Assembly: GCA_017642885.1 (NCBI GenBank)
Contig: JAEPOM010000010.1
Coordinates: forward strand, 1-64,000
DNA from: Henriciella sp.
Lineage (GTDB): Bacteria > Pseudomonadota > Alphaproteobacteria > Caulobacterales > Hyphomonadaceae
Length of the DNA stretch: 64,000 nt
Reading direction: 5' to 3'
Positions 1 to 18,143 of the stretch are shown one piece after another; position 1 is the stretch's first letter, and the number at the start of each line of letters is the position of its first letter. The notes under the pieces were generated by a model. The model was not told where the DNA came from. It saw only the letters and a list, made by a program, of their open reading frames with translations, and did no database searches. Both the position numbers and the translations under genes were made by a program.

Positions 1-62
1 GTAGCAGCATGAACGCCGCTACGTTGAAACCGCCGGACTAACATAGGCGATGGACCACCTTA

Positions 63-308
63 GTGGGGCAGACCAGCCCTGCCGCTATGGATCTAGTCAC
101 ATCTGAAAGATATGGCAGCGACAACGCAAATTCTGAACTCATCGCGGCACTCGTCGAATCTGGTGTGTCGATTGAGCTGTGTGGGCAAACCGCTGCGTTC
201 CGAGACATTTCTGAGGCCGACCTTCTGCCAGGCGTGACAATGTCTCTGTCTGCTATGACGTCCCACGCGCTTTTGCAGCAATCCGGCTACACTTTAAACC
301 CGTTCTAG
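63..308 (+). CDS. DsrE/DsrF-like family protein, apparently missing its N-terminus
   Basis: The 81 residues resemble the C-terminal two thirds of DsrE-like proteins, which carry or relay sulfane sulfur. The matching features are a cysteine in an ELCGQTAA stretch, then EADLLPGV, and a GYTLNPF end typical of the family. The possible start is a GTG at 63. Stops occur in all three frames just upstream (10-12, 39-41, 44-46), so the usual first strand and helix of the roughly 115-160 residue domain are absent. It may be a truncated gene, or a short functional form. It sits 10 bp before an exported rhodanese, which fits a sulfur-relay role. The family assignment is fairly safe; whether the gene is intact is not. 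Confidence 0.5.
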   Translation: MGQTSPAAMDLVTSERYGSDNANSELIAALVESGVSIELCGQTAAFRDISEADLLPGVTMSLSAMTSHALLQQSGYTLNPF

Positions 309-318
309 AGTTCAGTAG

Positions 319-741
319 ATGCGATCGGTATTTGTCCTAATCGTCGCGATTCTTGCCTGGCAATTCGCGGCCGTCGCACAGATCGAGACAGTGACCGCGA
401 CCGAGGCGCATAACCTGCAAAGCCAGAACGGCGCGATCCTCATAGATGTGCGAACACCCGGCGAATGGAACAGAGGCGGAATGCCAGCCGGGTCAATCGG
501 TATTTCGATTGCGGAGACTGACTTTGTCTCACGCGTTCGCAACATTGTCGGCGGTGACTTGGACCGACAAGTGATCCTTATTTGCCAAACCGGAGTGCGA
601 TCTTCACACGCTGCCAGATTATTGGAACAGAATGGGTTCCGTAACCTTAGTAACGTTCAAGAAGGTATACGAGGCAGCTGGCGAGCAGGTCCAGGTTGGA
701 TCAAGAAAGGCTTGCCAATGCGCCCGTTTTCATCCGAATGA
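319..741 (+). CDS. exported single-domain rhodanese
   Basis: This 140-residue protein starts with a hydrophobic signal peptide (about residues 1-20, ending AAVA) and continues as one rhodanese domain. It has the IDVRTPGEW substrate-side motif and the active loop CQTGVRS with catalytic Cys89. Rhodaneses move sulfane sulfur between thiols, so this one would act in the periplasm. Its stop overlaps the start of the next gene (ATGA), so the two are probably translationally coupled. It is one of three exported rhodaneses in the first 16.5 kb, alongside sulfide and persulfide oxidation genes. The physiological donor and acceptor cannot be read from the sequence. Confidence 0.88.
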   Translation: MRSVFVLIVAILAWQFAAVAQIETVTATEAHNLQSQNGAILIDVRTPGEWNRGGMPAGSIGISIAETDFVSRVRNIVGGDLDRQVILICQTGVRSSHAARLLEQNGFRNLSNVQEGIRGSWRAGPGWIKKGLPMRPFSSE

Positions 742-1190
742 AGCTCCTGATACCTCCTCCCTTAATAGGGCTCCTGACAGCCGGAGCGATGTGGGGCGTC
801 GCCAGAAATGCGTCCAGTTTTCAAGTTGAGCAACCGCTAATCCAGCTCCTCTCATTAGGGATTATTGCACTTGGAATAGGCATAGAACTTGTTTGCGTCT
901 TCCAGTTTTTTCGGGCGAGAACCACCGTCAATCCGCTGAGTCCGGATCAGGCGAGCAGTCTCGTTATAACAGGGTTTTATCGATATACTCGCAACCCAAT
1001 GTACCTGGGATTGCTGATTTTGTTGCTCGGGTGGGGGCTAAGACTTTCGAACCCACTGGCGTTGCTACCAATTCTACTATTTGTTGCCTACATGACAGTG
1101 TTTCAGATTAAACCTGAGGAAGAAGCCTTAAAGCGCAAGTTTGGCGATCCGTACTTAGAGTATTGCGCACGAGTGCGCAGATGGCTGTAG
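738..1190 (+). CDS. isoprenylcysteine carboxyl methyltransferase (ICMT)-like membrane methyltransferase
   Basis: The protein has 150 residues with about four membrane segments. Near the end it has the pattern of the ICMT/phospholipid methyltransferase family: YRYTRNPMYLG (residues 81-91), then after two membrane segments an EEEALKRKFGDPY stretch. These enzymes use S-adenosylmethionine to methylate thiol, carboxyl or lipid substrates inside the membrane. The start chosen is the ATG at 738, which overlaps the rhodanese stop, although the frame is open further upstream. The coupling to a rhodanese suggests a sulfur-related substrate, but that is inference. Bacterial members of this family are rarely characterised. 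Confidence 0.75.
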   Translation: MKLLIPPPLIGLLTAGAMWGVARNASSFQVEQPLIQLLSLGIIALGIGIELVCVFQFFRARTTVNPLSPDQASSLVITGFYRYTRNPMYLGLLILLLGWGLRLSNPLALLPILLFVAYMTVFQIKPEEEALKRKFGDPYLEYCARVRRWL

Positions 1191-1200
1191 AAATTTTTCG

Positions 1201-2022
1201 TCACTTAACCGGATACTTAAGCGACCAAGAAAGACTATCCGTGGTTGCGTCTTGCTGGTCGGATAGACCGATTTTCATATCGATATGGCCGTCCTGAGGC
1301 TCGCTTGTATAGGTGCCAAAAATCCGATCCCACAGCGATAAACAAAACCCGAAATTGGTATCGTGTTCATGACTGTGAACCGAATGGTGAACCCGATGCA
1401 TGTCTGGCGTGACGAGTATGGTCCTCAAGATACGGTCCAGCCATCGTGGAAGAGCGAGGTTTGCGTGATTGAACATCGCGCTGGCGTTTAAAACGACCTC
1501 AAACAAAATGACCGCTATCACGCTTGGTCCCAGCAAGAATACCAATACCAGCTTGTAAAGCGAAGAGGCGGCAATCTCGATTGGATGAAACCGCAACGCG
1601 CTGGAGGCGTCTAAATCGCGATCAGCATGATGAACGCGATGAAATCGCCAAAAAAGTGGAACCTTGTGACTAATTAGGTGTTGGAACCAAATCGCCAAAT
1701 CGAGCGCGGCGATCGCGAGTAGAACTGACACGACGAGCGGAAGTTCAATGTAATGGAGCAAACCCCAGCCGAGCTCTAAACTCAAACTGGCTGCTGCCGT
1801 CATCGCAAGGAGCGGAGCTGCGAGTGCTAACACCCGAACCAGCATTGTAGCGATTACCAACAGCGACGCATTGGTTGTCCAACGCTTCAATCGTGATTGA
1901 ATACGTCGTCTGCGAGGGATCGCCGCCTCAAGCGTGGAAAAAAATAGAAAAGCGGCGGCAAAAATGCTGAGCCGAAATGTGGATTCTGTCATCCCCAAAA
2001 TTGTATTTACATCACTTGCCAT
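1201..2022 (-). CDS. sterol desaturase / fatty acid hydroxylase family membrane protein
   Basis: This 273-residue protein has several membrane helices and the clustered histidine boxes of di-iron membrane hydroxylases: HLISH (115-119), HRVHH (128-132), FNHAN (184-188) and HRVHH followed by HEHDTNFG (209-224). The family inserts oxygen into lipids, fatty acids or sterol-like molecules. The boxes are intact, so it is probably active. Its first codons overlap the end of the rhodanese gene upstream by 11 bases, indicating co-transcription. The lipid substrate is unknown. Similar hydroxylases occur next to sulfur genes in other accessory islands, but a functional link is not proven. Confidence 0.85.
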   Translation of the reverse strand: MASDVNTILGMTESTFRLSIFAAAFLFFSTLEAAIPRRRRIQSRLKRWTTNASLLVIATMLVRVLALAAPLLAMTAAASLSLELGWGLLHYIELPLVVSVLLAIAALDLAIWFQHLISHKVPLFWRFHRVHHADRDLDASSALRFHPIEIAASSLYKLVLVFLLGPSVIAVILFEVVLNASAMFNHANLALPRWLDRILRTILVTPDMHRVHHSVHSHEHDTNFGFCLSLWDRIFGTYTSEPQDGHIDMKIGLSDQQDATTDSLSWSLKYPVK

Positions 2023-2575
2023 CAGGTCCTACCGGTAGCCTAGAAATGAACTCGGGGTGGCTAAGCAATTTGCCCCAAGATCGATCAAAAGGGTGCACAA
2101 ATTGCGTTGGTCCGATCTCGTTGTTAAGCAGACGGCCTTCATTATGCCATCTGAATATTCCGCCGCTGAGATTATAGATCTCTTCAGCGCCTACGTCTTT
2201 CAGAGCAGTACGAGAGCGGTCGGCAAGTTTGGACGAGCGAACGCCCACCGAGCAATAAAAAACAATATGTTTCCCGCGAGCTAATGCTACCAATTGGTCG
2301 ATAACCTCTTCTGATTTGGCTCTTGGAGAAATCCGAACTGCATTGGGTAGGCGCGAAACAGCAAACTCTTTTTCCGACCGGACATCAACCAGGATAACGT
2401 TTTCACTGCCAGTGAGAATTGCCGCCAAATCAGAGCTGCTAATATGACCAATATTGGGAAACGCCTTTTGCAGTGACGCATCAATGGATGCGAGGCGGTT
2501 CGGGTCGGCGAAAGACAAGCCAGAAAAGCTTGTGAAGCTCAGCATAATATACAGGGCGAACAATCGTATTGACAT
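2012..2575 (-). CDS. exported rhodanese-like sulfurtransferase
   Basis: This 187-residue protein has a signal peptide (about 1-23, ending LSFA) and one rhodanese domain with ILVDVRSEKEF (residues 61-71) and the active loop CSVGVRS (catalytic Cys108). The start is placed at 2575 because the signal peptide begins there; an upstream in-frame ATG at 2626 would add 17 polar residues. About 45 residues follow the domain, ending in a WHNEGR... extension seen in exported rhodaneses of this type. The 3' end overlaps the hydroxylase gene by 11 bp. It probably handles sulfane sulfur in the periplasm. Confidence 0.85.
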   Translation of the reverse strand: MSIRLFALYIMLSFTSFSGLSFADPNRLASIDASLQKAFPNIGHISSSDLAAILTGSENVILVDVRSEKEFAVSRLPNAVRISPRAKSEEVIDQLVALARGKHIVFYCSVGVRSSKLADRSRTALKDVGAEEIYNLSGGIFRWHNEGRLLNNEIGPTQFVHPFDRSWGKLLSHPEFISRLPVGPDGK

Positions 2576-2632
2576 AGGACGTCCATTCTCACACCTCACG
2601 CCTTGTTCAAACAGTGATCGAGTCACACAACG

Positions 2633-2995
2633 CTACTTGAACTTTATCTGACCTGCACGATGAAAAATCTGAAGATTCAAGAATAACGCTTTCACGATTG
2701 GCAGCAAAACGAAAATCAACAACCCTGTCAGCGCAACCAACAAAGCGTATCCAAACAGTTTGGCACCGAGAGAAAGCTCAGCAATCGATAGGACGACCGC
2801 AAAAGGCATTGTGAGGATCAGCAATGCAAAGCCAACAAAGTAGGCAGGTCCATCTGCCGTATCGGCGATGGAAAAGTCCTGCCCGCAGACTTCACACTGA
2901 TCCCTAAATTGCATTCGGCGCTCGAAGACTTTGCCCTCATTGCAAACGCCGCACTTAAGGCGAAGCGCTGCTGTGACAGGTTTTGAATACGACAT
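2633..2995 (-). CDS. DUF983 membrane protein with two CxxC pairs
   Basis: The 120-residue protein has two CxxC pairs (Cys15/Cys18 and Cys34/Cys37), a DGPAYFVGF stretch and two membrane helices. This is the DUF983 layout. The cysteines probably bind zinc. Members are often found near cytochrome oxidase genes, and here a cytochrome bd operon lies about 1 kb away. The function is not established. It lies between a rhodanese and a peroxiredoxin gene, all on the minus strand. Confidence 0.82.
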   Translation of the reverse strand: MSYSKPVTAALRLKCGVCNEGKVFERRMQFRDQCEVCGQDFSIADTADGPAYFVGFALLILTMPFAVVLSIAELSLGAKLFGYALLVALTGLLIFVLLPIVKALFLNLQIFHRAGQIKFK

Positions 2996-3050
2996 GGCTC
3001 TGTCCTTTTGCCAAGCCAGCCGAATACGGACTGACTTGGCTCGGTTTGGG

Positions 3051-3680
3051 TTAGCTTATTTCTGTGAATCTCAAATACGAGCGTACCTCATCCCATCCTT
3101 GCGGGAATTTGGACCGTGCCTGCTCATTCGTGACTGAAGGTGGGATGATGACCTTGCCGCCTGGCATCCAATCCGCAGGGGTCGCAATGCCATGCTTGTC
3201 ACCCGTTTGAAGCGCATCGATTACACGAAGGATTTCATCAAAGTTTCGACCAACACTCATGGGATAAGTCATGGTGAGGCGGATTTTCTTATTCGGGTCG
3301 ATGATGAAGACCGAACGAACCGCGGCTGTTTCGCTCTCGCCTGGATGGATCATGTCATAGAGTTCGGCCACTTTGTGATCAGTATCAGCGACGATCGGGA
3401 AAGCCAGATCGGTATTCTGCGTGTCATTCACATCATCAATCCACTTGATGTGCTCTTCAACGGTATCGGTGGAGAGACCGAGTGGCTTGGTGTTGCGGTT
3501 GACAAATTCCTGAGAAAGCTGCGCTGTGCGCCCCATTTCTGTGGTGCAGACCGGGGTGAAGTCAGCTGGATGGCTGAAGAAGAAGACCCAGCTGTCGCCG
3601 ATCCAATCATGGAAGGAAATCTCGCCCTTAGTGGTCGGGATGGTGAAGTTTGGGGCGGTATCGCCGATTCTGAGAGACAT
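3051..3680 (-). CDS. 1-Cys peroxiredoxin (Prx6 family)
   Basis: The protein has 209 residues with the peroxiredoxin active site DFTPVCTTEM (peroxidatic Cys45) and the Prx6-type C-terminal half (TYPMSVGRNFDEILRVIDAL, ATPADWMPGGK). It has no clear resolving cysteine, as expected for a 1-Cys enzyme. It reduces peroxides in the cytoplasm using an external thiol donor. It is the first of two such genes in the window; the second (12097-12753) sits with the persulfide dioxygenase genes, so a role against reactive sulfur or peroxide made during sulfide oxidation is plausible. Confidence 0.93.
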   Translation of the reverse strand: MSLRIGDTAPNFTIPTTKGEISFHDWIGDSWVFFFSHPADFTPVCTTEMGRTAQLSQEFVNRNTKPLGLSTDTVEEHIKWIDDVNDTQNTDLAFPIVADTDHKVAELYDMIHPGESETAAVRSVFIIDPNKKIRLTMTYPMSVGRNFDEILRVIDALQTGDKHGIATPADWMPGGKVIIPPSVTNEQARSKFPQGWDEVRSYLRFTEIS

Positions 3681-3725
3681 GGTTTGTCCTTTCTGGGAGG
3701 TATGAGAATGTTGATTGGAAATGGG

Positions 3726-3884
3726 TTAGTGTCTGAGCCACAGCATGATCAGGGGAACCCAGATCAAGGAGGTGGTGATCAGGCCTTTGATGCTCTGATA
3801 TGCGATCCAGACCCAGAAAAGCTCCTTTTACGAGCGCTCAGGGTTTTTAGGGCCAGGCGCGGGGACCAATTGGAAAGCGTTTGC
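3726..3884 (-). pseudogene. possible relic of a small membrane-protein gene
   Basis: On the minus strand a frame without a start codon reads a polar segment containing APGPKNPERS, then an in-frame TAA at 3828-3830, then a clean membrane-helix segment containing ELFWVWIAYQSIKG and LIWVPLIMLWLRH before a TAA at 3726. The amino-acid texture is protein-like across the stop. A strong AGGAGGAGG ribosome site lies upstream, but the only ATG there (3886) opens a different frame encoding 36 unconvincing residues. It sits between the peroxiredoxin and the DUF2474 gene of the cytochrome bd operon. I read it as a decayed gene with a lost start and one nonsense change. Confidence 0.35.
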
Positions 3885-3897
3885 ATATGTCCTCCTC

Positions 3898-4026
3898 CTA
3901 AAGCACCAGCTTGATGAGACCGCCGACGATCAGGATGACGGCGACGCCGAGTGCCCAGAGACCAACGAACCAGGCGATCTCTTTCAGACCGGTCTTCTTG
4001 ATGGGGGTACGGAGTTCTTCACGCAT
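3898..4026 (-). CDS. DUF2474 small membrane subunit of cytochrome bd
   Basis: This 42-residue protein has a basic N-terminus and one membrane helix (IAWFVGLWALGVAVILIVGG, about residues 17-36). Its ATG at 4026 overlaps the cydB stop (ATGA). Small single-helix proteins in this position (CydX/DUF2474 type) associate with and stabilise bd oxidases, especially the cyanide-insensitive branch. Its position, size and coupling support that role. The sequence itself is too short for a firm family call. Confidence 0.7.
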   Translation of the reverse strand: MREELRTPIKKTGLKEIAWFVGLWALGVAVILIVGGLIKLVL

Positions 4027-5027
4027 CAGTGATACCCCGCATCCGGATCGACTTTCCCGCGAAACACCCAATAGGTGAAAACGGTATAGCCAATAATGAT
4101 AGGAAGAAGGATCAGCGCACCGACGAGCATAAATAGTAGGCTCGAATCTGGTGCTGCCGCCTCCTGAATGGTGATCGCGCGCGGCACAATGTAAGGCGAA
4201 ATGCCGATGCCGAGACCTGCAAAGCAGAGCGCGAATAGTCCGATCGAAGTCGGGAAAGCGACTTGATCCTTTTTCGTAATAAGTCCCCAACCGAGGATAG
4301 CAGCAAGGATTGCCGTCAAAGTTGGAACGGGCAGCACAAACATCAATTGCGGGAACGTAAACCATCGTTCCGCGATCTCGGGCGAAAGAAGCGGCGTCCA
4401 AAGACTGACAATTCCCACAAAACCGAGCGTCGCAAGCGCAGAAAGTTTTGCGTAGCGATAGGCGGTATCGCGCAGTTCACCTTCGGTTTTCATAATGAGC
4501 CAAGTTGTCCCAAGCAGAGCATAGCCTGCCACGAGCGCAACGCCGCAGGTCACGGTGAACGGGGTAAACCAATCCCACCAGCCGCCGCCATAAGCGCGGC
4601 CATCAACTTCAATGCCTTGGACGAAGGCTCCAAGCACGATGCCTTGGCAGAACGTCGCGATCAGAGAGCCGTAAAAGAATGACTGGTCCCAGATCTTTTC
4701 ATGAGCTTTGTCGCGCCAGCGATATTCAAAAGCGACGCCGCGGAAGACCAGTGCCAGGATCATGATAATGAAAGGCGCGTAAAGCGCGGGCATCACCACT
4801 GCATAGGCGAGCGGGAAGGCCGCCATCAGGCCGCCGCCGCCAAGCACGAGCCAGGTTTCATTTCCATCCCAAACCGGGGCGACCGAGTTCATAGCGACAT
4901 CACGGTCGCTGTCAGATTTCAAGAACGGAAAAACAATCCCGATCCCAAGGTCAAAACCATCGAGCACGACATAGATGAAGATGGAAAGGGCGAGTAGACC
5001 AGCCCAAACTGTAGGAAGATCAAACAT
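4026..5027 (-). CDS. cydB: cytochrome bd ubiquinol oxidase subunit II
   Basis: The protein has 333 residues with about eight membrane helices. It has the family features VLDGFDLGIG near residue 21, WDGNETWL (53-60) and FRGVAFEYR. It forms the bd oxidase with the product of the adjacent cydA and reduces oxygen to water using quinol. The gene follows cydA by 12 bp and overlaps the DUF2474 gene, giving a three-gene operon on the minus strand. The bd oxidase resists sulfide and nitric oxide, which fits the sulfide-oxidation genes nearby. Confidence 0.95.
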   Translation of the reverse strand: MFDLPTVWAGLLALSIFIYVVLDGFDLGIGIVFPFLKSDSDRDVAMNSVAPVWDGNETWLVLGGGGLMAAFPLAYAVVMPALYAPFIIMILALVFRGVAFEYRWRDKAHEKIWDQSFFYGSLIATFCQGIVLGAFVQGIEVDGRAYGGGWWDWFTPFTVTCGVALVAGYALLGTTWLIMKTEGELRDTAYRYAKLSALATLGFVGIVSLWTPLLSPEIAERWFTFPQLMFVLPVPTLTAILAAILGWGLITKKDQVAFPTSIGLFALCFAGLGIGISPYIVPRAITIQEAAAPDSSLLFMLVGALILLPIIIGYTVFTYWVFRGKVDPDAGYH

Positions 5028-5039
5028 TGAAACCGTCTC

Positions 5040-6446
5040 CTATTCAGCGGGCAGAACGTCAGGACGCTGGGCAGCAAGCTGCGTCGTCCCGGCTGTGCGC
5101 GTTGGTGTTTCTGGAAGTGGTCGAACCTCACCAGGTTCTTTGTTCATCATCTTCAGGATGTAGAGCGTGCCTGCGCCAAACAGGGCGAAATAGACTACGA
5201 TGAAAGCGATTAGGGACGCTGCGACGGCAGGCGCTTCGACCGGCGCAATTGAGTCAGACGTCATCAAATGTCCGTATACCGTATAGGGCTGGCGTCCGAC
5301 CTCTGTCGTGATCCAGCCCGCAAGCACGGCGACAAAGCCAGAGGGTCCCATCAGCATGGCGGCGCGATGGAAGAGTGGCGCATCATAAAGCTTGCGGCGC
5401 CAGCGCAAGAATAAGCTGACAAAGCCGACCAACACCATGAGCATCCCGATGCCGACCATGATCCGGAAGCTCCAGAAGACGATTGGGACAGGTGGCTGCA
5501 GCTCGTCGGGCACGGTGTCGAGCCCCTTCATCGGTGCATTGAGATCGTGCTTGATGATCAGCGATGAAAGCTTGGGGATACCCACAGCATAGTCGAGACG
5601 CTGTTCTTCTTCATTTGGAATTCCAAACAGATAGAGCGGCGCGCCTTCCGGATAGCTCTCATAATGACCTTCCATGGCCATGACTTTGACCGGTTGGTGC
5701 TCATAGGTGTTGATACCGTGGAAGTCGCCAGCAACGACTTGCAACGGCGCGACGATTGCGGCCATCCACATTGCCATGGAGAACATCTTGCGCGCTTCAG
5801 GATTCTGACGGTTACGGAGCAGATGTAGCGCACCGACCGCACCGACCACGAAGGCGGTCGTGAGATAAGCGGCGAGAACCATGTGCACGAGGCGGTAGGG
5901 GAAGGACGGATTGAATATGATCTCCATCCAATTTTCCGGCACAAACTGGCCCACCTCATTGATGCCAAAACCGGCCGGTGTCTGCATCCAGCTATTCACT
6001 GACAGAATCCAGGTCGCTGACAAAAGCGTGCCGAACGCGACCATGATGGTGGAGACGAAGTGCAGCGTGTTGGAAACGCGCCCGAGGCCGAACAGCATGA
6101 CGCCCAGGAATCCGGCTTCTAGGAAGAAAGCGGTTAGAACTTCATAGGCCATGAGCGGCCCGATCACAGGCCCCGCTTTGTCTGAGAACACGCTCCAATT
6201 GGTCCCGAACTGGTAGGACATGACGATTCCTGACACCACGCCCATGCCGAAGGCGACCGCGAAGATTTTCCGCCAGTATTTGAACAGGCGCAGATAAACC
6301 GGATTTTCAGTTTTGAGCCAAAGACCCTCGAGCACCATGAGATAGGAGGCAAGGCCAATAGAAAAAGCCGGAAATATAATATGAAAGCTGACCGTGAACG
6401 CAAACTGGATGCGCGCCAGGAGGACAGCGTCGAGTGCTTCAAACAT
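5040..6446 (-). CDS. cydA: cytochrome bd ubiquinol oxidase subunit I (CIO type)
   Basis: The 468-residue protein has about nine membrane helices. It begins with ARIQFAFTVSFHIIFPAFS, where His22 is the haem ligand at the usual position. A GRQPY motif lies in the last quarter, where classical CydA has GRQPW. It is shorter than the classical 520-residue CydA because the quinol-binding loop is short, which marks the cyanide-insensitive (CIO) branch. It holds the haems and the quinol site of the oxidase. It is transcribed away from the NsrR-type regulator gene at 6574, with 127 bp between them. Confidence 0.94.
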   Translation of the reverse strand: MFEALDAVLLARIQFAFTVSFHIIFPAFSIGLASYLMVLEGLWLKTENPVYLRLFKYWRKIFAVAFGMGVVSGIVMSYQFGTNWSVFSDKAGPVIGPLMAYEVLTAFFLEAGFLGVMLFGLGRVSNTLHFVSTIMVAFGTLLSATWILSVNSWMQTPAGFGINEVGQFVPENWMEIIFNPSFPYRLVHMVLAAYLTTAFVVGAVGALHLLRNRQNPEARKMFSMAMWMAAIVAPLQVVAGDFHGINTYEHQPVKVMAMEGHYESYPEGAPLYLFGIPNEEEQRLDYAVGIPKLSSLIIKHDLNAPMKGLDTVPDELQPPVPIVFWSFRIMVGIGMLMVLVGFVSLFLRWRRKLYDAPLFHRAAMLMGPSGFVAVLAGWITTEVGRQPYTVYGHLMTSDSIAPVEAPAVAASLIAFIVVYFALFGAGTLYILKMMNKEPGEVRPLPETPTRTAGTTQLAAQRPDVLPAE

Positions 6447-6501
6447 GGGAATTTACCCTTTGAATTTGACCAGTGGGCCTAAAAGTGTCATTTGATTTAC
6501 T

Positions 6502-6519
6502 ACTTATAATTTTAAGAGT
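6502..6519. promoter_or_regulatory. imperfect dyad in the cydA / nsrR divergent promoter region
   Basis: ACTTATAAT followed directly by TTTAAGAGT forms an AT-rich imperfect inverted repeat midway between the divergent cydA and Rrf2-family starts. It is the best operator candidate for the Rrf2 regulator in this gap. The arms match at only 6 of 8 positions, so this is tentative. Confidence 0.3.
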
Positions 6520-6573
6520 TATCTTCGAGTACACTTTTTGTCGCATGCGACGCGCTGACTTGAGGAGATTGCA

Positions 6574-7050: not shown

Positions 7051-7155
7051 AGTTTTGATCGCTTGACGCAGCATTCTATACATCCGGTAAGCTGAACCTT
7101 CAGACCCTTTGCCGTTGATGCTCAAACGAAAGGCAGCGCATCTTGTCAGGGGCGG

Positions 7156-8979: not shown

Positions 8980-9015
8980 GGGTTGCAACTTCCTGGGTTT
9001 GATCGTGTTATGAGT

Positions 9016-10812: not shown

Positions 10813-10817
10813 ACTCC

Positions 10818-11684
10818 CTAAAGCGCGTTGATCGGTACTTTCATGTACCGAACACCATTGTCTTCCGGGGGCGGCATGTCACCCGCGCGCATATTGACCT
10901 GAACAGACGGCAAGATCAGTTTCGGCATGGCGAGCGTCGCATCGCGCTCGGTGCGCATCTTGATGAAGTCTTCGCGCGACGTGCCATCTTTCACGTGAAT
11001 ATTGGAGCGTTTCTGTTCACCAATTGTCGTTTCCCAGACATACGCGTCTCGGCCTGGTGCCTTATAGTCATGGCAAAGGAACATGCGGGTATCGTCCGGG
11101 AAGTCGAACAGCATCTGAATCGAGTCGTAGAGCGTTCCGGCATCGCCGCCTGGAAAATCACACCGTGCAGAGCCGAAGTCAGGCATAAAAATCGTGTCGC
11201 CGACAAACATTGCATCACCGATGAGATGGGTCATGCAAGCGGGTGTATGCCCTGGGGTCGCTAGAGCGCGAGCTTCGATGTTGCCGACGCGGTAAGACTC
11301 ACCGGGTTTGAATAAGTGATCAAACTGGCTGCCATCGGTGTGGAAGCTCTGACCTTCATTGAAGATGTCACCGAAGACGCGCTGCACTACAGGGATCTGG
11401 TCACCGATTGCAGTCTTGCCGCCAAGCTGTTCACGAATGTACGGCGCTGCGGTCAGATGGTCAGCGTGGACGTGTGTGTCGATGATCCACTCGCACGTCA
11501 GCCCATTTTGGCGCACAAACTCAACCAGCTTATCGGCCGATACGGTTTTTGTCCTGCCCGAAGCCTGATCATAATCCAGGAGCGAATCCACGATCGCGCA
11601 GTGTTTCGTCTCCGGATCGGCGACCACGTAGCTAATTGTGTAAGTGGCTTCGTCGAAGAAGCCGGTGACCTCGGGTTTTTGCAT
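10818..11684 (-). CDS. persulfide dioxygenase-type MBL-fold metallohydrolase (Blh/ETHE1-like)
   Basis: The 288-residue protein has metallo-beta-lactamase fold motifs: THVHADH (His71, His73, Asp75, His76), GHTPACMTHL (His146), FVGDTIF (Asp163) and FLCHDY (His205). The closest relatives are Blh and ETHE1-type enzymes, which oxidise glutathione persulfide to sulfite with an iron centre. The start at 11684 is chosen because GGAG lies six bases before it; an ATG at 11696 is the alternative. The gene lies between the BigR-type repressor and the sulfide:quinone oxidoreductase, the standard arrangement of bigR-blh operons. Confidence 0.9.
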   Translation of the reverse strand: MQKPEVTGFFDEATYTISYVVADPETKHCAIVDSLLDYDQASGRTKTVSADKLVEFVRQNGLTCEWIIDTHVHADHLTAAPYIREQLGGKTAIGDQIPVVQRVFGDIFNEGQSFHTDGSQFDHLFKPGESYRVGNIEARALATPGHTPACMTHLIGDAMFVGDTIFMPDFGSARCDFPGGDAGTLYDSIQMLFDFPDDTRMFLCHDYKAPGRDAYVWETTIGEQKRSNIHVKDGTSREDFIKMRTERDATLAMPKLILPSVQVNMRAGDMPPPEDNGVRYMKVPINAL

Positions 11685-11704
11685 CTTTGACTCCATAGCT
11701 TTGT

Positions 11705-12100
11705 CTAATTTCCCGTGCGGGCGAATACGCCGTAGCCGCCGGGACGATTGGGTTTGAGTTTGGGGGAAGTGTCTTTGCTGCCTGTTTTGGGCTCTGACTT
11801 TCCGAGCATGACTGCGCAAATGGCATCAACCATGTCTCGAACGCGCGGCTTGTTGCTTAGCGTGTAGAAGACAAGCTTTGATTCCTTGCGGGTCTCGACG
11901 AGGCCTGTATCTCTTAGTTTCGACAGCTCTCGCGATAGGCGTGGTTGTTTAATGCCGAGCGTCGTTTCGATGTCGCCAACCGACATTTCTGTGTCGCGCA
12001 GCTGGCAACAAATGATTAGCCGCTCTGGATGAGCGAGCGCCTTCAAAAGCTCCGTCGCTTCATTCGCGAGCGGAGCAACATCCTTCGAAAGCGGCGTCAT
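11705..12100 (-). CDS. ArsR-family persulfide-responsive repressor (BigR/SqrR type)
   Basis: The 131-residue winged-helix protein has RLIICCQL (Cys31, Cys32) in the third helix region and DAICAVML (Cys95) in the fifth, plus a recognition helix IKQPRLSRELSKLRDTGLV. BigR and SqrR carry one cysteine at each of these two places. They form a sulfur bridge when persulfide is present and release DNA. The ATG at 12100 overlaps the stop of the peroxiredoxin gene. It probably controls its own operon (peroxiredoxin, regulator, dioxygenase, SQR fusion, SulP) and perhaps the divergent pmpA-pmpB genes. The C-terminal 30 residues are polar and unusual for the family. Confidence 0.88.
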   Translation of the reverse strand: MTPLSKDVAPLANEATELLKALAHPERLIICCQLRDTEMSVGDIETTLGIKQPRLSRELSKLRDTGLVETRKESKLVFYTLSNKPRVRDMVDAICAVMLGKSEPKTGSKDTSPKLKPNRPGGYGVFARTGN

Positions 12101-12753
12101 TGGCTTGCATCCGTATGGGTGAGGTACCAAGCGCCGCCATTCATCGCCGAGCGTTTGTCAGCTTCAGCTTGATCAAGCGGCGGCGGTAGAACCGCTTCAT
12201 CGCCGGGTTTCCAGCCTTCGGGCGTGGCGAGCTCGCAAGAATCAGAGGTTTGCAAAGCATGCAAGACGCGCAGCAACTCATCGACTGAGCGCCCGACATT
12301 CATTGGGTAGTGGATGAGCGCTCTTACGTAGCCTTCAGGATCGATGAAGAAGACCGAGCGTACCGCTGCTGTTGTCGCGGACCCGTCATGGATCATGCCG
12401 TAAGCGCGGCTGACTGCCATCGAGATGTCTTCGATGATGGGAAATGTGATCTTTACATCGAAGCGCGCTTCGATGTCTTTTACCCAGGCAATGTGCGCGT
12501 AAAGGCTATCAATCGAGAGGCCGAGCAGATCGCAGTTTAGGTCGTCAAACTGCGGTTTCGCCTTCTGTAAGGCGACAAACTCTGACGTGCAAACCGGCGT
12601 GAAGTCCGCCGGATGTGAGAAGAAAAGTAGCCAGCGCCCGCGATAGTCAGAAAGATTGACCTCGCCCTGAGTGGTCCGCGCCGTGAAGTCTGGCGCGATG
12701 TCATCAATGCGAGCGGAGAGCGGCTGGGAAGGGGATGTATCGACTTCGTTCAT
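12097..12753 (-). CDS. 1-Cys peroxiredoxin, second copy
   Basis: This 218-residue Prx6-family protein has the active site DFTPVCTSEF (Cys55), further cysteines at 76 and near the C-terminus, and the YPMNVGRSVDELLRVLHALQ region. The ATG at 12753 is taken as the start because the frame upstream reads through promoter DNA. It is the first gene of the regulator-dioxygenase-SQR operon and overlaps the repressor gene (ATGA). It may remove hydrogen peroxide or reactive sulfur species made by the pathway. It is clearly related to the peroxiredoxin at 3051-3680 but has a longer N-terminus and a different C-terminus. Confidence 0.92.
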   Translation of the reverse strand: MNEVDTSPSQPLSARIDDIAPDFTARTTQGEVNLSDYRGRWLLFFSHPADFTPVCTSEFVALQKAKPQFDDLNCDLLGLSIDSLYAHIAWVKDIEARFDVKITFPIIEDISMAVSRAYGMIHDGSATTAAVRSVFFIDPEGYVRALIHYPMNVGRSVDELLRVLHALQTSDSCELATPEGWKPGDEAVLPPPLDQAEADKRSAMNGGAWYLTHTDASQ

Positions 12754-12776
12754 AGTGAAAATCTCTTGCTTGCCTA

Positions 12777-12811
12777 TTAATAAAATACAGTTTACAGATA
12801 TGTCAATACAG
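12777..12811 (-). promoter_or_regulatory. promoter and repeated-motif operator candidate of the sulfide operon
   Basis: On the minus strand TTGACA (12801-12806) lies 18 bases before TATTAA (12777-12782), 24 bases from the peroxiredoxin start. Three TACAG motifs (plus strand, 12786, 12793 and 12807) lie over this promoter at spacings of 7 and 14. The AT-rich repeats overlapping a promoter between divergent sulfur operons are a good site for the BigR/SqrR-type repressor. Confidence 0.45.
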
Positions 12812-12841
12812 GAACGTAAAATGAGATAGAGAGGTACGCCG

Positions 12842-13267
12842 ATGGAGAACTTCACCCCAGTAAGCGCAGCGATTGGTGGGGCCCTGATTGGGCTGTCTGC
12901 TGTCCTATTGATGGCGCTTAATGGCCGAATCGCAGGGATTAGCGGTGTCTTTTCCGGATCCGTCTTCGCTGAGCGCGGGGACAAGCTATGGCGCGTTCTT
13001 TTTGTCGTCGGCCTAATCGCTGCGCCCGCTATGTGGACCCTTGCGCAGGGTGCTCAACCACCATTTGAAATCACGCAAAACTGGCCACTCATTATCGCTG
13101 GAGGCTTGCTTGTTGGGTTCGGAACGCGCCTAGGATCAGGCTGTACAAGCGGCCATGGTGTTTGCGGGCTGTCTCGTTTGTCGCCTCGTTCAATGGCGTC
13201 AGTCGCTCTGTTTATGGGCGCAGGTATGGCGACCGTCGCAATCGCAAAATCAATGTTGGGGGCTTAA
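12842..13267 (+). CDS. pmpA: YeeE/YedE-type sulfur transport half-protein (PmpA-like)
   Basis: The 141-residue membrane protein has about four helices and the signature GTRLGSGCTSGHGVCGLSR, with Cys residues that pass sulfur across the membrane in YeeE/TsuA proteins. It forms a pair with the next gene, each half covering one side of the full-length transporter. It is divergent from the sulfide operon with 88 bp between starts. The substrate is probably thiosulfate or another sulfane sulfur species. Confidence 0.88.
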   Translation: MENFTPVSAAIGGALIGLSAVLLMALNGRIAGISGVFSGSVFAERGDKLWRVLFVVGLIAAPAMWTLAQGAQPPFEITQNWPLIIAGGLLVGFGTRLGSGCTSGHGVCGLSRLSPRSMASVALFMGAGMATVAIAKSMLGA

Positions 13268-13270
13268 GTC

Positions 13271-13705
13271 ATGGGACGGAATATTGCTGCTCTGCTCGCC
13301 GGTCTGATCTTTGGCCTTGGCTTAACCCTCAGCGAGATGGTGAACCCTGCGAAAGTTCTCGCTTTCCTCGACCTTTTCGGAAACTGGGACCCTTCGCTCG
13401 CCTTTGTCATGGGCGCAGCTCTTCTTGTGACGGCCATTGGATACCGGATCGCCTGGGCCCGCCCCAAGCCTGTCTTCGCCGACCAATTCCAAGTGCCTGG
13501 GAATCGCCGGATTGATCAGCGCCTTGCGATCGGGGCTGTATTGTTCGGAATCGGTTGGGGCCTTGTCGGCCTGTGCCCCGGCCCAGCAATATCAGCCCTG
13601 ACCTTTGGAGGAACGCCAATCTTCGTGTTTCTCGCGTCCATGGGAGCGGGAATGGCTCTGTTTGAAGTATTTGATCGATCACCGCTGAAAAAGAGCGCTG
13701 CGTAG
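13271..13705 (+). CDS. pmpB: YeeE/YedE-type sulfur transport half-protein (PmpB-like, DUF6691)
   Basis: This 144-residue membrane protein has about four helices. It has GLGLTLSEMVNPAKVLAFLD near the N-terminus and GIGWGLVGLCPGPAIS later; the cysteine in GLCPGP is the conserved one of this half. It starts 3 bp after pmpA. Such pairs are typical neighbours of bigR and persulfide dioxygenase genes. It should form the second half of the sulfur transporter. Confidence 0.88.
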   Translation: MGRNIAALLAGLIFGLGLTLSEMVNPAKVLAFLDLFGNWDPSLAFVMGAALLVTAIGYRIAWARPKPVFADQFQVPGNRRIDQRLAIGAVLFGIGWGLVGLCPGPAISALTFGGTPIFVFLASMGAGMALFEVFDRSPLKKSAA

Positions 13706-13727
13706 ATGGTCATTCGACACGGCTTAA

Positions 13728-14585
13728 ATGGATTATAAAATGAAGAACTCAGACCAAATCGAATACTGGAATGGTCAAGCAGGTAGCAAATGGGTTCAGC
13801 ACGCCGAGCGATTGGACGAATTGCTAGAACCCTTTGCCGACGATGTCTTAGGGCGCGCTGACCTCAAGCAAGGCGACAGCATCCTTGATGTGGGATGCGG
13901 TGCTGGCGCGTTGACATTGAAAGCCGGGTTCCAAGTGGGCGACGATACTCAATCGCTGGGCATTGATGTGTCAGCTCCATTGCTAGAGCTCGCTAAAAAA
14001 CGCGCGCGAGAGCGAGGCGCTCCGGTCCGTTTTGAGCGAGGCGATGCCTCAATTTTTCAGAGCGGGCATAAATTTGATGCGCTCATATCTCGTTTTGGTG
14101 TCATGTTCTTCGATGAGCCAGTTTCAGCGTTTGCGAACTTAAATGGGCTTATGCAACAGAATGGCCGGCTCACTTTCGCGTGTTGGCAAGCCCTTTCACT
14201 AAATGACTGGGCGAGGGCACCGCTAGAAGCCGCTATGCCATTGCTGCCCAGTTCTCCCGCTTCGCCGCCTCCGGATGCGCCGGGGCCGTTTGCGTTCGCG
14301 GATAAAGATCGAGTATTCCGAATCCTCGACGATGCCGGTTGGAATGATATCGAGATCAAATCTCAGCTTGGGCTTGTGCGCCTACCAGGTGAGACAGTGT
14401 CAGAGGCTGCGCGCTTCATGATGGAGCTTGGTCCGGTCGGGCGATTGCTTTCAGCAGCGGGTATAGACCTCGCAAAAGTTGAAGCCCCGCTGACCGAAAC
14501 TTTGTCAAACCACGTGCTTACAGATGGACGAGTATATATGCCTGCTGCGACTTGGATCGTATCTGCTCGATCCGCTGGGGCGTAA
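13728..14585 (+). CDS. class I SAM-dependent methyltransferase
   Basis: The protein has 285 residues with motif I ILDVGCGAGALT (52-63), GIDVSAPLLELAKKRA for the acidic ribose contact, and ISRFGVMFFDEP, as in UbiE/small-molecule methyltransferases. The substrate is not evident. It follows pmpB by 22 bp in the same direction, so it may be co-transcribed. No clear ribosome site precedes the ATG at 13728; a second ATG at 13740 is possible. A role in methylating a thiol or hydrosulfide is possible but speculative. Confidence 0.82.
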   Translation: MDYKMKNSDQIEYWNGQAGSKWVQHAERLDELLEPFADDVLGRADLKQGDSILDVGCGAGALTLKAGFQVGDDTQSLGIDVSAPLLELAKKRARERGAPVRFERGDASIFQSGHKFDALISRFGVMFFDEPVSAFANLNGLMQQNGRLTFACWQALSLNDWARAPLEAAMPLLPSSPASPPPDAPGPFAFADKDRVFRILDDAGWNDIEIKSQLGLVRLPGETVSEAARFMMELGPVGRLLSAAGIDLAKVEAPLTETLSNHVLTDGRVYMPAATWIVSARSAGA

Positions 14586-14599
14586 AGGGATATGAGTCC

Positions 14600-14653
14600 A
14601 TGCCAAAGGCTTATGTGATCCAGTCACACGATTGTTGCGCCGGGTCCTGTTAG
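14600..14653 (+). CDS. candidate cysteine-rich micro-ORF (17 codons)
   Basis: An ATG at 14600 opens a 17-codon frame MPKAYVIQSHDCCAGSC ending directly in TAG. Three of the last seven residues are cysteine, including the final one. The stop is 31 bases before the DUF2892 gene. Short cysteine-rich frames upstream of metal- or thiol-related genes are known elsewhere to act as sensing leader peptides. The ribosome site is weak (AAGGGA about 9 bases upstream). Whether it is translated is unknown. Confidence 0.35.
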   Translation: MPKAYVIQSHDCCAGSC

Positions 14654-14684
14654 AAACACAACTCCACAGATAATGGAGACTGTC

Positions 14685-14903
14685 ATGTCAGCAAATGTTG
14701 GAACAATAGACCGAGTACTGCGTCTATTCATCGGTATTGCCGCACTCGCCCTGGTTTTTGTAGGCCCGGTCGCTGCCTCAGGTGGTTGGGGTTGGGAACG
14801 TATCGCATTGGTCGCGGTCGGCGCGATCATGATAGGAACGAGCATGATAAAGTTCTGCCCGCTTTATCGCGTGTTCGGTATGCGAACGTGCAGCATGGAC
14901 TAA
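14685..14903 (+). CDS. DUF2892 membrane protein
   Basis: The 72-residue protein has the DUF2892 pattern: NVGTIDRVLRLFIG at the start, two membrane helices and KFCPLYRVFGMRTC near the end. The same domain forms the membrane anchor of the rhodanese YgaP. A GGAGAC site precedes the ATG at 14685; a start at 14673 would lie on that site. The two cysteines near the C-terminus may accept or release sulfur. It leads a small operon with an unknown membrane protein and a Crp/Fnr regulator. Confidence 0.85.
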   Translation: MSANVGTIDRVLRLFIGIAALALVFVGPVAASGGWGWERIALVAVGAIMIGTSMIKFCPLYRVFGMRTCSMD

Positions 14904-14907
14904 TGCG

Positions 14908-15330
14908 ATGCTGGAACTGATTAGAGAAGCGATCGCAGCCAACCAGGCTGAGGCCAGCACCTACTCACAAGCGGTGCGTGTCTGGATGCGCGTAATGTCC
15001 GTCGCTTTTCTGGCGAGTGTTGTGTTCGCGCCTTGGAAAGCCGGAGCGCGATGGATCCTGATAGCGATGTTGATCAACATTGCTGGCCTTGTGTTTGTGA
15101 AGGTAGCAATGCCCGAGCTTACTCGGACAACGATCGGAACAACGGTGCATTTATTGTTCTGGACGCTAGCACTCTTCATGATTTGGCGACCCGGCGCTCG
15201 AGAAACTCGAAGAGATGATTTCTCAGGTGCTACAGGACGGCTGTATCAAGTGTGGCTTGTGCTCGCCAGCTTGATTATGGCGACGTCATTGGTTCTGGAT
15301 GCGCGCACGGCGATTGGGTGGCTTGTTTGA
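14908..15330 (+). CDS. unrecognised four-helix membrane protein
   Basis: I do not recognise this 140-residue protein. A 25-residue polar N-terminus is followed by four predicted membrane helices (around residues 27-43, 49-66, 78-93 and 112-132). It has no cysteines. It starts 4 bp after the DUF2892 gene and its stop overlaps the TTG start of the Crp/Fnr gene, so all three are likely made together. Confidence 0.7.
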   Translation: MLELIREAIAANQAEASTYSQAVRVWMRVMSVAFLASVVFAPWKAGARWILIAMLINIAGLVFVKVAMPELTRTTIGTTVHLLFWTLALFMIWRPGARETRRDDFSGATGRLYQVWLVLASLIMATSLVLDARTAIGWLV

Positions 15331-15983
15331 GCAAAGTCATCGAGCACCTTTCGTCGCTCTTTGGTGTGAGCTCCGACCCGAGAGCTTTGGAGGCACTCGC
15401 CCGCGCAGCTTCTGTCATTCAAGCACCAGCTGGCGCTCAGCTGTTTGCGTCCGGAGATCAATGCGAAAGTTTTGTTGTCGTTGCAGACGGGCGAGCCCGA
15501 ATTCAACTCTCAACGAAAACCGGACGAGACATCACACTTTTCCGGCTTGAACGGGGGCAATCTTGCGCGCTGACGACTTCCTGTCTTTTGTCTGAAATCC
15601 CTTATTATGCGGAAGGGGTAGCAGAAACCGATATCGAATTGATTTCGATTCCATCAGTTGCTTTTCGCGATGCATTAGATGCGTCGCCTGAGATGATGAA
15701 AGTATTGCTATCTGACTATGCAAGTCGCATCGGTCATCTCACAGGACTGGTTGATCGGCTGACGTCTCGAGACCTGAACAGTGAAATCGCGGCTTTCTTG
15801 AAAAGCAGAGTGGGCCCAGATAAAATCGTGCCGTGTTCCCACAAAGAAATTGCTGACGAGCTTGGAACAGCTCGTGAAGTCGTGAGCCGAAGACTCAAGG
15901 AATGGGAAAAGCTCGGGTGGGTCAAGCTATTGCGAGGCCGCCTGCTCATACGTGATGAAGAGGCAATCGCCCGATTCATTTAG
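15327..15983 (+). CDS. Crp/Fnr-family transcriptional regulator
   Basis: The 218-residue protein has an N-terminal cyclic-nucleotide-type beta barrel, a long dimer helix (about 123-145) and a C-terminal helix-turn-helix (SHKEIADELGTAREVVSRRL, 171-190). Residues 79-88 read SCALTTSCLL, giving Cys80 and Cys86; Cys46 is also present. Members with this cysteine pair are common beside sulfide and persulfide genes and may sense sulfane sulfur. It lacks the N-terminal cysteine cluster of true Fnr. The TTG start at 15327 overlaps the previous stop; the frame is open upstream to 15252. Confidence 0.88.
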   Translation: MSKVIEHLSSLFGVSSDPRALEALARAASVIQAPAGAQLFASGDQCESFVVVADGRARIQLSTKTGRDITLFRLERGQSCALTTSCLLSEIPYYAEGVAETDIELISIPSVAFRDALDASPEMMKVLLSDYASRIGHLTGLVDRLTSRDLNSEIAAFLKSRVGPDKIVPCSHKEIADELGTAREVVSRRLKEWEKLGWVKLLRGRLLIRDEEAIARFI

Positions 15984-16002
15984 AAGATTGGTAGAGCAGA
16001 AT

Positions 16003-16482
16003 TTACTTCGAACCCGTGTCGTCTTCTTGTTCCAACGCGTCTTGTCGAAACGAGCCAAACTTGTTCTCGACGGGATGTCCGCCTTCTATCCAGGTTTCGA
16101 ACCCACTGTGCGCAGATACATTTGTATAACCTTGCGCAGATAAGGCTTTTTTGACGAGTGAGGCCCGGCTACCGGTCCGGCAATAGAGTATTATTTCGGC
16201 ATTTGCGTCTCGAACATTTTTTGCGAACTCAAACTCTGCGGTGCCGCGCGGCATAGAGATGGCGCCAGGGATATGACCGACTTCGAAATCACCGTTAGAC
16301 CGAACGTCCACGAGCATAAGGTCTGCGTTGCTGGATTGGCGCTCCAAAATGTAGGAATTATCTACGAATTCGATGCCGTCCTTAGCAGCAGCCGCGACCT
16401 CTTCGAGTGTCATCAATTCTTCTGCTGACGCGGTGAGCGCGATGAAACATCCTGATACAGCTATCACAAATGATCTGATCAT
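16003..16482 (-). CDS. exported single-domain rhodanese
   Basis: This 159-residue protein has a signal peptide (about 1-20, ending TASA) and a rhodanese domain with LMLVDVRSNGDFEVGHIPGA and the active loop CRTGSRAS (Cys101). It is the third exported rhodanese of the module. It is convergent with the Crp/Fnr gene. It likely transfers sulfane sulfur in the periplasm. Confidence 0.88.
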   Translation of the reverse strand: MIRSFVIAVSGCFIALTASAEELMTLEEVAAAAKDGIEFVDNSYILERQSSNADLMLVDVRSNGDFEVGHIPGAISMPRGTAEFEFAKNVRDANAEIILYCRTGSRASLVKKALSAQGYTNVSAHSGFETWIEGGHPVENKFGSFRQDALEQEDDTGSK

Positions 16483-16593
16483 TTTCCAAACCTCTAAATG
16501 CTCTGCTCCAGATAAACTGGCTCGCAGCTTAACTCCATATCAGAGCTGTTCCCAAGTGAAACTAAGGGCCGGGTCTTCGGAAGCAAGCCAGCG

Positions 16594-17853
16594 TCATGAG
16601 CCATATTGAATAGAAACTTTATACCCACTCATAGACATTGGCTTTATGGGGAGATGTTGCGGGCGCGCATCGGTTGCTGTTTTCTCCTGCCCGCTCACGA
16701 CTTCCGGTGAATAGTTCATCAGTTTCCCCAATTCTCTGGTGATTCCGGCATTGGCATTTCTTACTGGCGCGGCTCCAAGGTGCGCATAGCGCGCGGTGGT
16801 TTGAGCTTGCGTATGGCCTAATAGTTTTCCGATGATCGGTAGTCCCAGATTCTGGGAAGCGGCGATCGACGCAAACGTATGCCGCAAGTCATGGATTCTT
16901 ACGTCTGGGATCTTGGCGGATATTCTGATCCGACGCCATGGTTTTTGAAAATCCGTGAGATGCTGACCAGGCACAATCCCCCGAATGACAAATGGATTGT
17001 CAGCTGCTTGCGGAATCGATTTTAGGATCGCTGTTGTTTCTGGGGTCAGATAGATTGTCTTTTTACCAGTTTTTGAATCTTCTAGACGTAATTCGCCACG
17101 CTCAAAGTCGACTTCTCTCCATCGAAGATACTGGATCTCACCAAGACGGCATCCTGTAAATATGAGGAGTCTGAAAGCCGCCGCCGACATGGGCGAGAGT
17201 GTTTCTTCGAGATCCAATGCTCGAAACAAACGTACAAGTTCTTCTTTCGAGAGGAAGCGCTCTCTTTTCTCTTCTTTGAACCTTTTTACACGCATGCACG
17301 GGTTAGCTTTCTCGCCGCGTAAATCCCAAACTTCTGCTTGAGAAATCATCTTTGAGAATGTGCCTAACACGCGATTTGCTTGGTAAGGTCTATCGGAGAG
17401 GCTTTGATGGAGTTGTGCTGCATCGCTGCGGCTTATCTCCAAAACCTTCTTCTCACCCAGCAATGGAACAATATAAAGCTCGATGTTGCGCGTGTACTCG
17501 CTTTGAGTCGAAGGCTTCAAATGATACGGGATGTAGTTTGCTTTAAACCGTTCCGCGAGATCAGAAATCGTTGGAGCTTTCGCGTCCTCTGCTAAGTCGC
17601 CGATTATGTCTTCCCCGCCTGAAGCTGCTCCAATCAAAACTTGAGCCCGTCTTCTTGCTTCGTCGGCTTTTACAGAGCTCGTGCGTCCGAGCACCTTCTT
17701 TCTCTGCTTTCCTTCCACCCGGAAATGAACGATGTATGACATCGTGAGGTTGCGGTTCACCCGCAGGCCAAACCCTTTGAGGTCTGGATCCCAATAGGTC
17801 TCTCCAACGTCAGATGCGCTCAGAGAGTTTACAAATTTCTGCGTGATTTTCAT
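16594..17853 (-). CDS. tyrosine recombinase (phage/island integrase)
   Basis: The protein has 419 residues. An N-terminal arm-binding domain (about 1-80, DUF4102-like) and a core-binding domain (95-190) precede the catalytic domain with TGCRLGEI (Arg236), HDLRHTFA (His321, Arg324), GHTQ (His347) and the nucleophile Tyr356 in ARYAHLG. All catalytic residues are present. The ATG at 17853 follows a GAGGTGG site; the frame is open for 33 further codons upstream. The gene points away from a tRNA remnant about 200 bp to its right, which is the expected attachment site. It marks the edge of an integrated element. Confidence 0.95.
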   Translation of the reverse strand: MKITQKFVNSLSASDVGETYWDPDLKGFGLRVNRNLTMSYIVHFRVEGKQRKKVLGRTSSVKADEARRRAQVLIGAASGGEDIIGDLAEDAKAPTISDLAERFKANYIPYHLKPSTQSEYTRNIELYIVPLLGEKKVLEISRSDAAQLHQSLSDRPYQANRVLGTFSKMISQAEVWDLRGEKANPCMRVKRFKEEKRERFLSKEELVRLFRALDLEETLSPMSAAAFRLLIFTGCRLGEIQYLRWREVDFERGELRLEDSKTGKKTIYLTPETTAILKSIPQAADNPFVIRGIVPGQHLTDFQKPWRRIRISAKIPDVRIHDLRHTFASIAASQNLGLPIIGKLLGHTQAQTTARYAHLGAAPVRNANAGITRELGKLMNYSPEVVSGQEKTATDARPQHLPIKPMSMSGYKVSIQYGS

Positions 17854-18054
17854 CTGCCACCTCACAATTCTCGTTGGCCAGATGATACAATTTAGGGTCG
17901 CTCCATGGTAGCAGATAATCGAGAACGAGCGGGTTGAGCCGGGAAATTCCAAGAAATCGAATTTCCTTATTAATGCAATAATATCAATACGTTACGGACA
18001 AATCGAGATTTTCAATTATATATCGAGATGATATGGGAATTAGCCCGGGGGCGA

Positions 18055-18099
18055 CTCATAACCTGAAGGTCGTAGGTTCAAATCCTACTCCCGCACCCA
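18055..18099 (+). other. 3' remnant of initiator tRNA-Met, candidate attachment site
   Basis: From the anticodon loop (CTCATAA) through AACCTGAAGGTC, the T arm (GTAGG TTCAAAT CCTAC) and the acceptor strand to CCA, this matches the 3' half of a bacterial initiator tRNA. The base before CCA is C rather than the usual A. The 5' half is missing: the sequence upstream cannot form the anticodon stem, D arm or acceptor. Tyrosine recombinases often cross over at the anticodon loop, so this is the expected footprint of integration. The gap 17854-18230 otherwise holds only AT-rich sequence and the terminator below. Confidence 0.82.
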
Positions 18100-18104
18100 A
18101 TAAA

Positions 18105-18143
18105 CCCCTGAAAATCTTCGGATTTTCGGGGGTTTTCCTTTTT
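18105..18143 (+). terminator. rho-independent terminator after the tRNA remnant
   Basis: CCCCTGAAAATC, loop TTCG, then GATTTTCGGGGG forms a strong hairpin with one bulged T, followed by TTTTCCTTTTT. It was probably the terminator of the original tRNA gene and stays on the chromosomal side. Confidence 0.85.

Follow-up and report, generated by a model that had tools for sequence, protein, structure and literature searches.

Genes for sulfide and persulfide metabolism that end in an integrase gene and half of a tRNA gene raise the question of whether they belong to the chromosome or are cargo of a mobile element, and of what kind. Such a block opens the 64,000-nucleotide stretch analyzed here (the window), positions 1 to 64,000 of contig C1 (GenBank JAEPOM010000010.1, assembly GCA_017642885.1) of a Henriciella genome (G000) that consists of 71 contigs and is rated 100% complete. 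Since the window starts at base 1 of C1, the left end of any such element lies outside its view. An earlier note, made from the letters of the window, had read the block as the cargo of an integrated island. Comparison with the other contigs of G000 and with related genomes makes us highly confident that an integrative and conjugative element (ICE) has inserted in a tRNA-fMet gene that follows rRNA genes, that the window opens with its right arm, and that the G000 copy has lost part of its length, probably through an insertion sequence (IS). The same element was found, whole or in part, in genomes G026 and G020; G000, G026, and G020 are three species of one genus.

The integrase gene is where the earlier note placed it (Table 1), and the encoded protein carries the motifs GCRLGEI, HDLRH, LLGH, and ARY, which we take to be catalytic. 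From position 18055, a run of 46 nucleotides beginning two nucleotides 5' of the anticodon exactly reproduces the 3' half of an intact tRNA-Met(CAT) gene at C27:13893-13969 (minus strand) in G000, and a terminator-like hairpin, read from the sequence, follows at about 18103-18143; the half tRNA and the terminator of the note were thus both recovered. ARAGORN detected no tRNA in the window. A search of G000 with window positions 17800-18200 gave a single other match at E ≤ 0.001, C27:13848-13937 on the minus strand, where ARAGORN called the tRNA-Met(CAT). With its terminator, the repeat is identical at 85 of 90 positions (E = 3e-33) and is therefore not due to chance. ARAGORN gives Met only; judging from its sequence, we presume that this is an initiator tRNA (tRNA-fMet). 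Upstream of it, on the same strand, are 23S and 5S rRNA genes.

An intact tRNA beyond the left edge, in this direction, had been predicted. In G000 it is on a separate contig, C27, and in G026 it shares one contig, C75, with the whole element. G026 is a metagenome-assembled genome (MAG). Its intact tRNA occupies C75:1368-1444, and the 44-nucleotide core of the repeat starts at 1400 and again at 62134, a core-to-core distance of 60,734 bases; no further copy of the core was found in C75:1-75000 on either strand with up to 6 mismatches. Window positions 76-18054 differ from C75:44155-62133 at 2 of 17,979 bases, and the integrase protein adjoining the G026 remnant is 100% identical to that of the window. 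By blast, window positions 76-18136 match C75 at 99.95% and positions 1896-15815 of the reverse complement of C27 (C27rc) match it at 99.93%. The right flank (window positions 21641-24083), in comparison, is 69.5% identical between the two genomes.

The two ends also differ in what surrounds the core. G000, G026, and G020 have the same terminator behind the intact tRNA, whereas G000 and G026 have different ones behind the remnant, indicating that the left terminator and the tRNA 3' half arrived with the element and that the right ones are those of the hosts. Such a terminator swap is what a crossover model predicts. In that model, the tyrosine recombinase would join the 3' half of the host tRNA-fMet gene to the same sequence on a circular form of the element, with the crossover within the shared tRNA stretch that starts in the anticodon loop. 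Because the element brings a replacement 3' half and terminator, the tRNA would stay intact, and the displaced host 3' half with the host terminator would be left at the far end (18055-18143). Both ends of the ICE share the 12-nucleotide sequence ATGGTAGCAGAT, the last 11 bases of which have one occurrence each in the window and in C27; it is a candidate arm or binding site of the integrase.

Unoccupied sites were sought among 17 loci from 15 relatives, picked from tRNA and integrase matches. The genome searches behind this and later comparisons scored a part of the first-look candidates of each genome (at most 6 for the tRNA, at most 10 for SulP and window sequence and for the hydrogenase, and 2 for traG), so that absences from them are not proof. 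Three relatives (G016, G028, and G003) carry rRNA sequence, the tRNA, and homologs of the right flank of the window on one contig. Here the gap from tRNA to flank is 0.6-3.2 kb, flank homology runs from about position 21641 or 24178 on, and no integrase match was found in the three loci. These are unoccupied sites, which the earlier note had proposed to look for in related genomes. At 16 loci of these 15 genomes, orphan tRNA halves and integrases were counted. There were seven such halves (G026, G018, G004, G008, G009, G033, and G006), each with an integrase of 34-100% identity on the opposite strand 165-226 bp away. At least four of the loci, those of G008, G009, G033, and G006, were fetched because both matches were listed for them, which makes the seven a biased sample; G033 belongs to another genus of the same family. 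Insertion at the tRNA-fMet gene recurs in the genus. Integrases at 40-44% identity in G036, G044, G051, and G030 were not beside any listed tRNA-fMet match, and the site preference is thus not common to every relative. At G004 C2:457180-465119, G018 C1:2025259-2034143, and G009 C12:811-7058, the same tRNA-fMet gene hosts small elements (6-9 kb) that have related integrases. By its terminator, G017 resembles an unoccupied site for the G004/G018 type.

The genes between the two ends identify the kind of element. From the tRNA inward, C27 encodes an XRE/M78 peptidase protein, an AbiE-type pair, ArdC, and an S26 peptidase (TraF-like), followed by a relaxase with DUF3363, a MerR regulator, TraG, and a 138-amino-acid fragment. 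On C75 the transfer genes are ordered TraF-like, relaxase, TraG, TrbB, TrbE, TrbF, TrbG, and TrbI, with the matches of the TraF-like peptidase and of the RlxS relaxase model both below their cutoffs. The middle of the G026 copy (C75:15261-44154) holds the rest of trbB and the TrbE, TrbF, TrbG, and TrbI genes, then non-transfer genes that include a hydrogenase cluster: a DUF3422 protein, a sigma-54 regulator, hydrogenase small and large subunits, a maturation protease, a NifU/Rieske protein, an NHL-repeat protein, HypF, and HypC, with further hyp-like open reading frames (ORFs) read from the ORF list only. As in other tRNA islands, there is an intact tRNA at one end, a 3' fragment at the other, an integrase inside, and an unoccupied site in relatives. 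As in other ICEs, an integrase and attachment repeats at both ends are joined, in G026, by a relaxase, a coupling protein, and mating-pair formation genes. "Integrated island" was therefore correct but understated, since the full form has conjugation genes and a hydrogenase cluster, and the G000 copy has probably lost 28.9 kb between two IS-bounded breakpoints. The sulfur genes stand as island cargo, being part of the near-identical block shared with G026, except that bases 1-75 are an IS end and not cargo.

The 138-amino-acid fragment on C27 is the first part of the G026 trbB gene, an identity that rests on the DNA match to G026. The G000 copy thus has a relaxase and TraG, a trbB gene cut short, and none of the remaining trb genes. 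No near-identical middle was found in G000 in searches with C75:20000-39999, 15200-19999, and 40000-44299, which returned relatives of 65-77% identity on C8, C11, and C16 and the junction pieces retained on C27 and C1. The breakpoints lie at C27rc 15794 (C75 15260) and window position 76 (C75 44155), a gap of 28,894 bases. Beyond these exact junctions, C27 runs into the left end and C1 into the right end of the same 1265-bp IS, which has two transposase-like frames and imperfect terminal repeats and which we assign, presumptively from its layout, to the IS3 family. No target duplication was visible by eye, which fits a deletion. C27 and C1 are probably linked through one IS copy, and an IS3-family element appears to have deleted 28.9 kb in G000 and so disabled transfer. 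Most of trbB, the other trb genes, and the hydrogenase cluster would have been removed in this later step, leaving an integrase, a relaxase, and the sulfide cargo without a complete transfer apparatus of their own; the remaining element would total about 33 kb (13,861 + 1265 + 18,023). G000 has a second trb-type conjugation gene set at C8:10179-18935, about 70% identical in DNA to the ICE genes, which might act in trans.

Instead of a simple deletion, the middle may have given way to another segment that has the same IS at its borders, or been rearranged with it. Ends of this IS are also present on C26 and C11, C26 ending in the left one, and three identical left ends were found in G000 against two identical right ends. 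G000 is rated complete and yet has no near-identical middle, and we consider replacement rather unlikely. Much less likely still is that the window belongs to a non-conjugative genomic island and that the conjugation genes of C27 come from a different element sharing the tRNA. The two halves are on different contigs in G000 and trbB is cut short there, but in G026 a single contig has the relaxase, the trb genes, and the window genes enclosed by one tRNA and one remnant, with no additional core copy in its first 75,000 bases, and separate elements sharing one tRNA were rejected on this ground. It is scarcely credible that the half tRNA arose by chance or is an ancient leftover and that the sulfur genes, neighbors of an unrelated integrase, are a normal part of the chromosome: such genes are common in the genus (the SulP gene has DNA relatives of about 70% identity or more in 15 of 29 genomes, that of G026 lying outside its ICE), but the 46-nucleotide identity and the presence of the same 18-kb block and remnant, near-identical, in a second species with about 70% identity in the flank rule out a chance fragment, as do the unoccupied sites, unless the MAG contig is misassembled.

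Several points weigh against the reading of an ICE reduced by an IS. C27 and C1 are separate contigs, and since C26 shares the IS left end, their pairing is a presumed one. The complete copy comes from a MAG that is 84% complete with 6% contamination. The trbB fragment alone matched no Pfam model. The genes right of the remnant (18144-21640) are not at this place in the matched relatives, so that no unoccupied site with exactly the flank of G000 was found. The orphan-half count leaves out other tRNA matches, for example those in G001, G010, G014, G021, G023, G024, G039, and G042. The enzyme step, excision as a circle, and former conjugative transfer are probable events deduced from the sequence.

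The third genome, G020, carries a differently reduced copy. The left end is present for 1598 bases at 100% identity and then meets a related IS; another stretch corresponds to C75:12246-45914 at 99.42% and also stops at a related IS. Among the matches listed (10 of 47 candidates scored), nothing near-identical to the window was seen beyond query position 1760. Together with the matches in G000, this indicates that the two genomes kept largely complementary parts of the ICE. The IS elements of G020 (L090 and L147) are 81-85% identical to that of G000 and cut the same ICE at other places. In a 398-genome sample of the order, in which 99 genomes had a traG match, traG at about 100% identity was found in G000 and G020 only, and G026 was not among the 99. 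The next match by score was at 70% (G129), and the highest other identity listed was 80% over 448 bases (G262). Compared with plasmid records (2572 of 2572), the relaxase gave matches below 60% identity.

The hydrogenase subunits of the ICE scored 629 and 523 bits against PDB chains 7uus/7utd and 7uur ("Hydrogenase-2"), and the next matches scored 208 and 125 bits. We take these chains to be Huc of a mycobacterium, a group 2a NiFe hydrogenase; by sequence, the ICE hydrogenase is closest to mycobacterial Huc. Its large subunit has two CxxC motifs. A search of the 29 genus genomes gave, among the scored candidates, matches to the subunit genes in three of them: G026, G020, and G000, the last with a 75% relative on C11. 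This relative belongs to a second hydrogenase/hyp cluster at C11:40500-57700, the two subunits of which show 88-90% protein identity to those of the ICE. A second island at a tRNA near this chromosomal cluster (C11:61792-61865) was considered and rejected: a 200-base stretch around the tRNA had no repeat copy in C11:30000-62000, matching only itself, a 52-base partial inverted segment inside its own stretch, and a 15-base segment.

Transfer genes, cargo, and site each resemble published systems. Tn4371-family ICEs have the order TraF, relaxase, TraG, and trb genes, and members with identified ends have TTTTTCAT-like repeats, with no repeat given for some members (PMC2789088). Of the order traF, relaxase, traG, trbBCDEJLFGI, the present element has TraF-like, relaxase, TraG, and TrbB/E/F/G/I, but its attachment repeat is tRNA-fMet sequence and not a TTTTTCAT-type site. 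Mesorhizobium ICEs, including ICEMlSymR7A, have an RlxS-like relaxase, trb genes, tyrosine integrases, and insertion at tRNA genes, and ICEs and integrative and mobilizable elements lie adjacent to tRNA-Met in that genus (PMC8627217). Those ICEs carry symbiosis or other cargo, unlike this element. With shared transfer genes but no TTTTTCAT site, we class the element as a tRNA-gene ICE whose transfer region is Tn4371/ICEMlSym-like, and not as a Tn4371 member; given the Mesorhizobium ICEs, its kind of site is not new. Nor is hydrogen cargo on an ICE, since CMGI-2 and CMGI-3 of Cupriavidus metallidurans CH34 carry hyp/hox hydrogenase genes, with IS elements proposed to gain and lose that cargo (PMC2864759); the hydrogenase of the present element differs in having Huc as its closest relation by sequence. 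In the vent strain Hydrogenovibrio SP-41, hydrogen oxidation was probably gained on a genomic island (PMC6501319), and, unlike for the ICE here, the word "conjugative" is absent from the main text of that paper. What is new is the combination of cargo, transfer genes, and site; ICEs in tRNA genes, among them tRNA-Met, and hydrogenase genes on Tn4371-type ICEs have been published before. Literature searches found no paper on Henriciella and hydrogenase, no paper on tRNA-fMet as an ICE attachment site, and nothing relevant among the matches listed for persulfide dioxygenase on genomic islands.

The mobile element itself is of an ordinary kind, and its cargo is the point of interest. One complete copy, two reduced copies, and unoccupied sites indicate how a single step can bring hydrogen and sulfide oxidation genes from one alphaproteobacterial species to another and how IS elements can then pare these gene sets down. 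As a tentative idea, which we hold with more doubt than conviction, the ICE may be a self-transmissible lithotrophy kit for heterotrophic Henriciella (Huc-type hydrogen scavenging, persulfide-route sulfide oxidation, and a sulfide-tolerant bd oxidase) that IS elements trim to the parts a host lacks. G000 has its own related hydrogenase on C11, lost that of the ICE, and kept the sulfur genes, of which no second near-identical copy was seen in this genome among the matches listed (10 of 53 candidates scored). G020 kept the trb and hydrogenase genes without a near-identical right arm among the matches listed, and has a related sulfur locus on its contig C30 (70-73% DNA identity).

Table 1. Features of the ICE right arm and its borders in the window
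Feature	Position	Strand	Evidence or remark
Right end of 1265-bp IS element, cut by contig end	1-75	+	Identical to end of complete copy C11:37512-38776; ICE match starts at 76
Right arm of ICE (cargo, integrase, attR core)	76-18098	+	Near-identical in G026 C75
Peroxiredoxin	3051-3680	-	NCBIfam PRK13189 above cutoff
Cytochrome bd-type quinol oxidase subunits	4026-6446	-	CydB 4026-5027, NCBIfam cydB above cutoff; CydA-like 5040-6446, CydA models below cutoff
SulP-type permease with STAS domain	7156-9075	-	Pfam and TIGR00815 above cutoff
Fusion of sulfurtransferase domain and sulfide:quinone reductase (SQR)-like flavoprotein	9118-10812	-	TIGR01244 above cutoff; SQR model below; Pfam BLH_phosphatase, Pyr_redox_2
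Metallo-beta-lactamase-fold protein, likely persulfide dioxygenase	10818-11819	-	Pfam Lactamase_B; dioxygenase part of bifunctional Blh model, 400 bits, below whole-protein cutoff
ArsR-family regulator, BigR-like	11705-12130	-	NCBIfam HTH_metalloreg above cutoff; BigR below
Two sulfur transport proteins	12842-13705	+	Pfam Sulf_transp, DUF6691
Rhodanese-like protein	16003-16482	-	Pfam Rhodanese
Tyrosine recombinase (ICE integrase)	16594-17853	-	419 amino acids; Pfam Phage_integrase E = 7e-22, arm-binding and SAM-like domains
12-nucleotide sequence ATGGTAGCAGAT common to both ICE ends	17905-17916	+	Word comparison between the end regions
attR core, 3' part of tRNA-fMet	18055-18098	+	Identical 44 nucleotides at C27rc 1934, C75 1400, C75 62134
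Final tRNA base and native host terminator of the tRNA	18099-18143	+	Right of core differs between G000 and G026; left-end terminator same in both

Several of the NCBIfam names in Table 1 are below their cutoffs, so the exact cargo functions are likely ones. The two sulfur transport proteins are presumably YeeE/YedE-like. A second peroxiredoxin-like and two more rhodanese-like ORFs in the window come from reading the ORF list only. The stretch 18144-21640 beside attR was ruled out as part of the ICE, the G026 match ending at the remnant and terminator. From the ORF list, its host genes read as amidohydrolase, LysR, methyltransferase-like, and GFA-like, and the first of them has a 77% DNA relative elsewhere in G016.

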